Shown one piece after another: positions 12,541 through 16,250 of a stretch of DNA of 64,000 nt. Source of the stretch: Chloroflexota bacterium (GTDB taxonomy: Bacteria; Chloroflexota; Anaerolineae; Anaerolineales; Villigracilaceae); NCBI GenBank assembly GCA_013112685.1, contig JABFGC010000001.1, positions 248,001 through 312,000 on the forward strand, written 5' to 3'. Made by a program: the position numbers and the translations under genes. Every line of letters begins with the position of its first letter. The stretch's first letter is position 1. The notes below the pieces were generated by a model. That model made no database searches and was not told where the DNA came from. It worked only from the letters and a program-made list of their open reading frames with translations.

Positions 12541-14016
12541 TTAATTTCTGCCCAGGGAGGCGAGCACCCTCAAAATGAACTCTGCCGTCCGCTTGCCGGA
12601 TGTCCCATCGGTGAACGTGATTTCATCTTCGACGAATTTCCGCCTCTGGACCGCGTCGAGAGTTGGATCTGCCAAATAGAGATTTAACGCATCCCGGAGT
12701 TGGTCCACGTTTTCCGCCACGCGTCCTGCTTTCGCCTCGCGGAATCTCTTATGCGTGGGCCATTCGCCGATTTCCTTGAGCGAGAGCGAAAATTTCTTTG
12801 GGTGATTCCAGCCATTCGGGGCGTCAATGGTCGCCGCGATCATCGGCGTGTTGTGGACAGCGGTTTCGACCAGCATCGTCGAATAGACCGTGACCACCAC
12901 ATCCGAATACGCCATCATGGAGGATTTCTCGTCCATGTCTTCGCCGCCGTAGTAGCCGAGCGATCCGCCCAATGCCACCGGCTGGACAACGTGCACGTGC
13001 GGATATTTCTTCTCCAACTCAAACACGCGTGCCCGTTCCTCGGCGAAGATCTTCGGCTTATCCTGGAAATGACTCGGGTGCAAACGAATTAACAACTGCG
13101 AAGGCGCTACTAATTGATTCAGCGAGTCAGGCGAGTCAGCGGAAACCAGTTTTGCCAGCGCCTCGATGTTCGGATAGTTCGGCGCAAAGTGGACGAAACT
13201 GCTGGCATACGAGATCAGCTTGCGCCTGGGATCGAGTCCATGCAGTTTGAAATACTCGTCGCGCGGCATGAGCCATTGCCTGCGGAAATATCCGTCATAC
13301 GAAGGGATGCCGCCGATGTTCACATGCTCTGGATTCCAGTCAGAGCCATAGACTAACTCGTCCTTTTGCAATTGAGACCAGCACGTCGCCCATTGCACAT
13401 CCGCGCCGGAGATGTTGTACGACGATGAATTGTCCCAGCCGACGATGACGGTCATGTTCGGGATGCCGCGCTTGGCGGATTCACGCAGGAGGTAACGATC
13501 CATGCGCCAGCCGGGAGTCGAAGCGATGACCATGTCGGGTTGGTATTTGTCGAAGAGGTCAGAATACAGCCCCGGGGTCGGCGTGAAGCGGTTTTGCATC
13601 CGCACTAAAAGTTTGCGGGCGAAGGAAAAATTCCGCAGGAGGAGAATCATCAGCGCGGAGGGAATCCAAATCCCCAAACGAAACTTCCACGAGTTCTCCG
13701 CCCAGACTTCCCAGATGTGGCTGTCCATGGCTTCGGTGTTGATGCGGCGTGAGCCGCCGACGCGGCGCAGGTAGGCGAGCAACCATTGCAGGCGCGGTTG
13801 CACTTTCTTTGCGTAGTCGTTGGCTTGTTTGAGGCGGAGTCCCTCGACGATGAGACCAGGGCGACCAAAGCGGCTGGAGATTTGAGACTGGATCTCGTCG
13901 TCGGTGAGAAGGACGACTTCGACGCCCGCATCGAGCAGCGTCGGGACGACGTCGCTTTGCAGGAAGTAGATGATTGCCATGCCGTGGTCGGCGGAAATGA
14001 AGATGCGTTTGGACAA
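12541..14016 (-). CDS. Capsule-type GT-B glycosyl/glycerophosphotransferase
   Basis: 491 residues. The first half starts with ISADHGMAIIYFLQSDV; the second half holds the RxHP motif (LIRLHPSHF) and the landmark YSTMLVETAVHNTPMI. These are the same two landmarks as in the genes at 1-1634 and 29317-30921 and fit the CDP-glycerol glycerophosphotransferase / capsule synthesis superfamily. The start is a TTG at 14016; no ATG fits better. It probably acts at the cytosolic membrane face on the growing chain. The donor is unknown. Confidence 0.72.
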   Translation of the reverse strand: MSKRIFISADHGMAIIYFLQSDVVPTLLDAGVEVVLLTDDEIQSQISSRFGRPGLIVEGLRLKQANDYAKKVQPRLQWLLAYLRRVGGSRRINTEAMDSHIWEVWAENSWKFRLGIWIPSALMILLLRNFSFARKLLVRMQNRFTPTPGLYSDLFDKYQPDMVIASTPGWRMDRYLLRESAKRGIPNMTVIVGWDNSSSYNISGADVQWATCWSQLQKDELVYGSDWNPEHVNIGGIPSYDGYFRRQWLMPRDEYFKLHGLDPRRKLISYASSFVHFAPNYPNIEALAKLVSADSPDSLNQLVAPSQLLIRLHPSHFQDKPKIFAEERARVFELEKKYPHVHVVQPVALGGSLGYYGGEDMDEKSSMMAYSDVVVTVYSTMLVETAVHNTPMIAATIDAPNGWNHPKKFSLSLKEIGEWPTHKRFREAKAGRVAENVDQLRDALNLYLADPTLDAVQRRKFVEDEITFTDGTSGKRTAEFILRVLASLGRN

Positions 14017-14069
14017 TGCTGTTCTTTCTTACTGGAAGTTGATTCTGCTTTGAGAGGCGGATTCCACCC

Positions 14070-14603
14070 TTAGCCTGCTTTCAACTTCGCACAAAGTCTT
14101 TTGATATTCTCTTGGTACTTTGGGATTTGACGAATGTTAGGATATTGCGCCCAAATCTCACTTACCATTTGTAAGATTTCAATATATCGTTTACAAACTC
14201 GAATAGCATTTTGATAATCTTTTTTCTTTTCATAAATTATTCGAAGACGTTCATAAGGCAAAGACGCAAGAAAACCATCACTAATGTTTTGTTCGTATAA
14301 AGTAATAGCACTTTGTATGTCATTAGATTTTTCAAATTTCTGAGCCTGTGTGAGCCGTTCCCCCAAACGCTGGTCAATTTCAAGTGCCGCTTGTCGGTAT
14401 GGCAAAGCCAATTTGCGCCCCATTTCTAAAGAATCAATTACAAAATCTAATCGAACCGACAAAGGAAGGTTTGTCAAATTTTCTTTGAATGGGTTTGTCC
14501 CACTATCTATGGCTTGGGCAGTTTGAATCAAAAGAACACTGCGAACGCCAGCGGGTAAGTCAACAAATAGATTGTCAGGCGCAGGAAGATCATTTTCTTT
14601 CAT
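14070..14603 (-). CDS. TPR-like protein of unknown function, partner of the HEPN-like gene
   Basis: 177 residues, mainly helical, with a degenerate tetratricopeptide pair around residues 95-165 (AQKFEKSNDIQSAITLYEQ, then KKDYQNAIRVCKRYIEI). No catalytic motif is visible. Its start codon overlaps the stop of the HEPN-like gene (ATGA at 14600-14603), so the two are translated together. Base composition is clearly more AT-rich than the flanking glycan genes, and codon use differs, which suggests recent transfer. Function not recognised. Confidence 0.6.
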   Translation of the reverse strand: MKENDLPAPDNLFVDLPAGVRSVLLIQTAQAIDSGTNPFKENLTNLPLSVRLDFVIDSLEMGRKLALPYRQAALEIDQRLGERLTQAQKFEKSNDIQSAITLYEQNISDGFLASLPYERLRIIYEKKKDYQNAIRVCKRYIEILQMVSEIWAQYPNIRQIPKYQENIKRLCAKLKAG

Positions 14604-15169
14604 TGTTTTCTCGATAACTCAGCAGCAAACCTCGATAAATATTGCTTTTCTTCAGGGTCTATTTCAACAAGGCACTTAATCACCATAAAAATAGTCTCTA
14701 CCGCTTTTTCTGCGCTGTTTATCATCGAATAAACATCGTCACCAACTTTTTTCATTTCAACTTCATCTTCTAGTTGCACTGTTTTAGATTTGGAGTGTAC
14801 TAGCTCATTACGCAGTTTTTTGAGTTCTTCCAAATTTTGATAGCATTGTTTGTCTTTGGGAAATCGCCTACCAGTAAACAACTCAGAAATAACCACCCAT
14901 TTACTTACGAAATCTAAATTGTCCAAATGCTCTTTGAAAAACGCATTACTTCGTTTTCTTGCAGCATAGTTATTTATATACGCTTCCAATGTAAAGGCTG
15001 AAAAAACAATCGCAACCATTGCACATTGCCTGCTTTGCATAATAGATGCGACATGTTCATCTACAGACTTGGCGCTCCTAGCCTGATGTCGTTGTGTACG
15101 AGCCAACTCCAAATTTTCAAGCGCAATTTTCGTGAAAACGTTTATGTTATTCAAAAGCAAATCTGTCAT
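14600..15169 (-). CDS. HEPN-like protein
   Basis: 189 residues from the ATG at 15169, preceded by GAAAGAG. The pattern AFTLEAYINNYAARK followed about 70 residues later by KLRNELVHSK fits a HEPN domain: RNELVH has the Rx4H spacing used as the ribonuclease site in many HEPN toxins. The gene is AT-rich and tightly coupled to the TPR-like gene downstream. HEPN proteins act in toxin-antitoxin, abortive infection and RNA decay systems; which applies here is not known. Domain call is from motif and helix pattern only. Confidence 0.6.
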   Translation of the reverse strand: MTDLLLNNINVFTKIALENLELARTQRHQARSAKSVDEHVASIMQSRQCAMVAIVFSAFTLEAYINNYAARKRSNAFFKEHLDNLDFVSKWVVISELFTGRRFPKDKQCYQNLEELKKLRNELVHSKSKTVQLEDEVEMKKVGDDVYSMINSAEKAVETIFMVIKCLVEIDPEEKQYLSRFAAELSRKQ

Positions 15170-15188
15170 TTGTACTCTTTCTTGGATT

Positions 15189-16250
15189 CTATTCGTAGTA
15201 CAACTTGAAAATCCAGTTATACACCGCCAGTAGAAACTTCTTGATAAATCCAACTTCCAACACCCGCCTCCCAAACGAGACAGGTTTCTTCCCCTTCAGG
15301 AACGATGTCTTCCCCGCGTCCTTCAACTCCCCCCTCAAATACCCCAGCGTATTGGACATATTCATCGCCAGCGAATCGGAGACCATCAGGCGCAGCAAGC
15401 CCGCGTCGTTCATGCGCTTGTCCAACTGGCGGACTTGTCCCATCGGCTTGTCCATGTCAAAGGGCAGGAATTGCTGAAGGGTAGATTTGTACGCCGTGAA
15501 CTGCCAGTGTGAGGCGCCAGCGAAGGCAACAATCTCATTCGATGTCGCTGCGAGCGGTTTTTGCGAAGCAGCCTCCTCATTTACGGGGAGATTGCTTCGT
15601 TGTCGCTCCGCTCCTCCTCGCAATGACATGGGGTTATAAGTTATTCTCCAGTCTCTAGTCTCTGCGTACACTTTTTTGTTCTCTTCCTCAGTTTGCCCAA
15701 GTGAGAGGTTGAATTCAAGGAAAGTCTCCCACGGAATGAATTGACCCTCTTCGAGAGTCGCGTTTTTCCGCGCCCAATCGAGCGTGGACGAGTACAACTC
15801 AGGCGAAGTGCGGAAGGGACGCGCGGTCACCATGCCGACGTTCGGGAAGGTTTCGAGGATTTCCACCGAACGGGAAAGCCATTTCGGCGAGAACAAAACG
15901 TCAGCATCGGTGTAGGCGATGATCTCACCCGGCGCGCCGCCGAAGATGACATTCCACGCGCCGCCTTTGCCCATATTCTTCTCGGCAAGGATCAAATATT
16001 GAATGCGCCCTTCCTCTTTTTCTTTCACGAGGAATTCGCGCACTTCAGCGCAGGAGCCGTTGTCGAAGACCATCAGGTCGAAGGGCAGACCTGCATCGTT
16101 CCTCATGGAATCCATGCAGACTTTCAGCACGTCGAGCGTTTCGGCGTAGAATCCGCTCAGGAAGGGGATGTAATTCAACAGCGCGACGGTGATCCGCTCC
16201 GGGCGGGCAACGTCTTTGACGAACTTGGCGGGGTTTTGACCTTTTCGCAT
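15189..16250 (-). CDS. GT2-family glycosyltransferase with in-frame repeat insertion
   Basis: 353 residues with a GT-A fold: ERITVALLNYIPFL at the start, DLMVFDNGS, EKNMGKGGAWNVIF, and the metal site AYTDADVLFSP near residue 116. About residues 200-240 (PMSLRGGAERQRSNLP and flanks) are encoded by a palindromic repeat and a heptad run (15541-15672) that split the enzyme between EENKKVYAE and EIVAFAGASHWQF without shifting frame. The ATG at 16250 directly abuts a heptad array with no clear ribosome site. Probably adds a sugar to the chain in the cytosol. Confidence 0.8.
   Translation of the reverse strand: MRKGQNPAKFVKDVARPERITVALLNYIPFLSGFYAETLDVLKVCMDSMRNDAGLPFDLMVFDNGSCAEVREFLVKEKEEGRIQYLILAEKNMGKGGAWNVIFGGAPGEIIAYTDADVLFSPKWLSRSVEILETFPNVGMVTARPFRTSPELYSSTLDWARKNATLEEGQFIPWETFLEFNLSLGQTEEENKKVYAETRDWRITYNPMSLRGGAERQRSNLPVNEEAASQKPLAATSNEIVAFAGASHWQFTAYKSTLQQFLPFDMDKPMGQVRQLDKRMNDAGLLRLMVSDSLAMNMSNTLGYLRGELKDAGKTSFLKGKKPVSFGRRVLEVGFIKKFLLAVYNWIFKLYYE
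15541..15672. repeat. GTCATTGCGAG-type repeat plus heptads inside a GT2 gene
   Basis: 15541-15628 runs from a degenerate GTCGCTGCGAGC to CTCGCAATGACA with inner AGCAGCCT/AGATTGCTT arms, the same family as 3449-3572 and 17317-17401. It is followed by heptads (CTCCAGT, CTCTAGT, CTCTGCG) at about 15648-15670. The block is read through in frame. Confidence 0.7.

Follow-up and report, generated by a model that had tools for sequence, protein, structure and literature searches.

The closest described arrangement is that of the LA2681 HEPN family, which was reported in 2013 as fused to TPR or encoded in an operon with TPR genes (PMC3710099, Table 1). The same survey describes AbiU2 proteins whose genes lie in operons with a Sel1-repeat partner, and it classes both DUF3644 and RiboL-PSP HEPN as HEPN (PMC3710099). 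In the HEPN/MNT systems (HepT-MntA), the HEPN gene is accompanied by an adjacent minimal nucleotidyltransferase. HEPN ribonucleases with solved structures act as dimers with a composite active site. Here, a pair of genes is considered that lies in a 64,000-nucleotide stretch of a Chloroflexota bacterium contig (JABFGC010000001.1, positions 248,001 to 312,000; hereafter the window, in which all positions are counted). The HEPN-family gene (14600–15169, minus strand) encodes 189 aa from an ATG at 15169; the start was set there, and a longer TTG-start ORF (to 15274) enters the upstream glycosyltransferase gene. The TPR-like gene (14070–14603, minus strand) encodes 177 aa. The stop of the first and the start of the second overlap in ATGA at 14600–14603 (minus strand), and translational coupling of the two genes is possible. 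The GC content of the genes is 0.368 and 0.378, respectively, compared to 0.547 for the window, and the 1100-bp stretch of the pair (GC 0.37) is the most AT-rich part of it: of 1258 sliding windows, the two with equal or lower GC both overlap the pair. The initial annotation, which had pointed to both ORFs, their four-base overlap, and their AT-richness, was correct in these respects.

Similar to the LA2681 HEPN, the protein encoded in the window has the Rx4-6H spacing and its gene is in an operon with a TPR-like gene, which overlaps it, but this was seen in this genome only. No LA2681 match was obtained with Pfam for the window protein (E up to 10) or for 36 family members (E up to 0.1), a comparison in which HMMER filters can drop weak matches. 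The nearest named HEPN profile is RiboL-PSP HEPN (PF18735), and Rx4H is common to both; however, the window protein remains below the cut-off (E 0.018; 15.4 bits against 28.4) and shows no endoRNase L-PSP domain. The resemblance to HepT-MntA consists of the HEPN fold, found among the best structural matches, and of two overlapping genes, whereas no minimal nucleotidyltransferase is adjacent and the partner is TPR-like. The AbiU2 operons with a Sel1-repeat gene (PMC3710099) likewise combine HEPN with a helical-repeat protein, yet AbiU2 is not among the matches listed for the window protein and the repeat of its partner matches TPR, not Sel1. A weak local match to DUF3644 / EC042_2821 HEPN covers the Rx4H region (E 0.0027), but it is below the gathering score and the protein carries no wHTH, REase, or Zn-ribbon fusion. 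Literature searches on HEPN proteins with TPR antitoxins turned up no matching pair besides the LA2681 entry.

The first question is whether the product of the first gene is a HEPN protein. The initial annotation relied on the RNELVH sequence (R120 to H125), i.e., on the Rx4H spacing of HEPN ribonucleases. A single Rx4H in a protein of 189 aa is weak evidence when taken alone, and it is strengthened by conservation among relatives. The motif is present as proposed, and in the alignment of 36 HEPN-family members the active-site-type residues R120 and N121 are each kept in 35 and H125 in all 36, which answers the question of R and H conservation among homologues and shows the conserved Rx4-6H of the HEPN superfamily. 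Residues E62, D83, D86, K90, W91, and K127 are also invariant (36/36), and LDxLDxxxKW, at about residues 82–91, is a motif of the family. The AlphaFold2 model based on the family alignment (mean pLDDT 93.9) has a predicted all-helical HEPN fold. When Foldseek candidates were compared to it with VIA-align 2, ranks 1 to 19 were all HEPN proteins or HEPN-type structures, with Z from 7.8 to 10.2, although middling Z values can arise by chance between helical bundles. The top matches include Thermus TT1696, AF_0298, HepT, HEPN-MNT toxins, and Csm6, and the best one aligns over 122 residues (Z 10.2, rmsd 3.0). Foldseek alone gave no match at E ≤ 0.001; the assignment is therefore based on the enrichment of HEPN structures among the matches together with the motif. 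No Pfam model reaches its cut-off with this protein, the sub-threshold matches being the DUF3644 and RiboL-PSP profiles; the latter (HEPN_RiboL-PSP) is matched by 11 of the 36 family members (best E 3e-5) and is the most frequent Pfam match in the family. For PADLOC, which has no model dedicated to this family, the one match is a weak one, to the HEPN portion of a CARF-HEPN model, and a sequence search of the PDB with the family gave no match. Judged by model and alignment, the first gene product is a member of the HEPN superfamily that retains catalytic-type residues. Of the claim of a HEPN ribonuclease, the HEPN identity and the catalytic-type residues are borne out by the fold model, the structural matches, and the 36-member alignment; the ribonuclease activity is what these would predict.

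The second protein was previously described as a degenerate TPR pair that is not a known MNT antitoxin, and both statements hold. Its repeats are degenerate and match TPR_7 with E 0.0022, short of the Pfam cut-off, while residues 66–156 match designed TPR proteins with E 2e-11. The C-terminal helical repeat extends over about residues 66–150 and contains the motif PYERLRIIY. Pfam gave only weak TPR and MIT profiles and no nucleotidyltransferase domain, and an MNT antitoxin was rejected on this basis. A single-sequence model of this protein (pLDDT 53) was left out of the analysis. A class scan revealed that other Chloroflexota have short stand-alone proteins of about the same size; these can be aligned over much of their length and have PYERL and flanking positions in common with the TPR-like protein. 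The repeat motif is also found in larger or unrelated phage proteins, and this motif is all that was shared in the phage records.

The second issue is whether the two families belong together. The search for co-occurrence, with one genome per species, was negative: a relative of the TPR-like partner is encoded at none of the 46 loci of HEPN relatives, reading of the same loci revealed no coupled TPR-like neighbour, and no HEPN of this family was found near relatives of the TPR-like protein at over twenty loci. A conserved HEPN-TPR pair is thus rejected, and the pairing was found in this genome only within the loci searched; the conserved co-occurrence of a toxin-antitoxin system was not seen. 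The earlier suggestion that the genes might represent an undescribed toxin-antitoxin type is not supported, since the pairing did not recur at the loci searched and since HEPN-TPR operons, namely LA2681, were already described in 2013 (PMC3710099). The HEPN gene is a member of a widespread family, and its pairing with the repeat protein was seen only here.

The setting of the pair is a variable slot (14017–15188, minus strand) between two conserved genes of a glycan operon. Its left flank is a glycosyltransferase-like gene (15189–16250, minus strand), found genus-wide with about 72–97% identity over the best-matching part, and its right flank is a gene for 491 aa with a TTG start (12541–14016, minus strand), 82–90% identical in most genus-mates. 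The slot was compared in 31 genus-mates having both flanking genes on one contig, and neither the HEPN nor the TPR-like gene was present in the slot of any of them. It is empty (29–130 bp) in 7, contains a methyltransferase gene alone in 5, the methyltransferase with additional genes in 4, and other cargo in 15; the exact boundary of an insertion could not be set with flanks that diverge between species. As recognisable cargo, L113 has a TdeIII restriction endonuclease and its methyltransferase, and L129 (503–2401) a very AT-rich UG17 reverse transcriptase accompanied by an RT-associated SLATT_5 protein. In L107 there is a DUF4062-NB-ARC protein that resembles a PADLOC candidate, in L122 a protein that matches ApeA-HEPN weakly, and in L111 a Y1-type transposase. 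Diguanylate-cyclase, WD40-like, and unnamed proteins were also found. Most of the cargo is not recognisably defensive, and the share of defence genes is suggestive. As for the proposal of a defence pair, what survives is the defence-like setting, given by what sister genomes carry in this slot, and not the new HEPN-TPR toxin-antitoxin type.

The explanation we favour, with a probability of roughly 0.5, is that the pair is an acquired two-gene cargo module in the variable slot, consisting of a HEPN RNase effector and a locally recruited TPR-like modulator. It assumes that the two genes arrived horizontally in a slot of the conserved glycan operon. The HEPN protein, judging from its fold and conserved residues, would act as a dimeric endoribonuclease with a composite active site built from two RNxxxH motifs. 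It is probably an anti-phage or stress-activated RNase effector; phage or stress would unleash it, and the resulting RNA cutting would lead to toxicity or dormancy. The TPR-like protein would bind either HEPN or its trigger and modulate HEPN, or would sense the trigger, as a partner recruited locally rather than a conserved antitoxin. This role in HEPN control is one it may have, and it is proposed from the gene overlap and the common base composition. The whole explanation is supported by the fold model, the conserved residues, the GC of 0.37 against 0.547, the empty slots, the defence-type genes in the same slot, and the ATGA overlap. It is weakened by the lack of Foldseek matches at E ≤ 0.001 and of a PADLOC model, by the mostly non-defensive cargo, and by the absence of the partner elsewhere.

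This absence, with the partner at 0 of 46 HEPN loci, no TPR-like coupled neighbour there, and the partner's relatives located away from such HEPN genes, fits with a HEPN effector that acts alone and a TPR-like gene that is merely its unrelated neighbour, the two having arrived or built up in a slot that collects AT-rich genes and the overlap reflecting compact packing with no functional coupling. Other occupants of the slot likewise combine unrelated genes. However, the pair has the same unusual GC, the same direction, and the ATGA overlap, and another HEPN family does form operons with TPR genes (PMC3710099). Unrelated neighbours are a serious alternative, somewhat short of an even chance and nearly as likely as control of HEPN by the TPR-like protein. 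A further reading, which we regard as speculative and unlikely, joins the favoured module to a broader claim: the HEPN protein would represent an unnamed widespread RNase family, defined by LDxLDxxxKW and RNxxxH and triggered by phage or stress, to which a TPR-like switch was added in this lineage, so that the module would be outside the known HEPN toxin-antitoxin types.

The distribution of the HEPN family shows how widespread it is. Relatives with roughly 20–35% identity occur in the same bacterial family, on Pseudomonas and Thiothrix plasmids, and on 31 genome contigs, among them contigs of Anaerolineales, Saprospiraceae, Oscillospiraceae, Opitutaceae, Pseudomonas, Comamonas, a cyanobacterium, and a Thermoplasmatota MAG. 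The members span several phyla of bacteria, and one MAG is archaeal. In a phylum-wide sample, 6 of 400 genomes contain the family. Single-protein queries of IMG/VR gave no close relatives, and the family alignment retrieved seven HEPN loci on viral contigs, none with the partner (0/7). There was no HEPN match in phage records; plasmid records contain distant HEPN relatives and no TPR-like partner. In six Pseudomonas loci, plasmid or chromosomal (L031, L054, L057, L060, L063, L066), the HEPN gene is followed immediately by one for a tyrosine recombinase, and the loci other than these and the ssb-linked ones described below are mostly without a coupled neighbour. A Sphingobacterium member (L058:5767-8576), judged from sequence only, is followed by AAA ATPase-like and RloB-like genes.

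In ten Anaerolineae loci (L036, L037, L038, L039, L041, L042, L045, L046, L050, L062), the HEPN homologue is directly upstream of ssb, with a gap below 30 bp or a slight overlap, and this could be a second accessory site or may mean that HEPN monitors SSB. Since these are the closest relatives, it might also be considered that the HEPN protein is not a toxin but binds RNA or nucleotides in a housekeeping or regulatory function tied to DNA replication. Such a function is improbable: within the genus the homologue is present at 5 of the 30 ssb loci examined and is accessory there too, distant members are located beside recombinases or on plasmids, and catalytic-type residues are kept throughout the family. 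A role of the pair in glycan biosynthesis, as an assembly or regulatory accessory of the host operon, is suggested by its position between two co-directional glycan genes, but it is very improbable when the pair is missing from the slot in all 31 genus-mates and genes for restriction, reverse transcriptase, and transposase are among those found there instead.

If the acquired-module explanation is correct, the catalogue of likely RNase effectors would gain a HEPN family for which neither Pfam nor PADLOC gives a match at cut-off. The glycan-operon slot of Anaerolineales would then be one into which conflict genes, such as those for restriction and reverse transcriptase, are taken up repeatedly, and defence genes that are still unknown could be sought there in a phylum that is little studied. 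The HEPN-TPR pairing, as a single occurrence, so far teaches little by itself. A separate observation concerns the sister slots. The repeat GCTGGTTGAGTAG, which has no good match within the window, is present in five of them (L107, L111, L113, L122, L136); by reading, three of these contain a small GIY-YIG-like gene, and one contains the Y1 transposase. The repeat is possibly a REP-type element.
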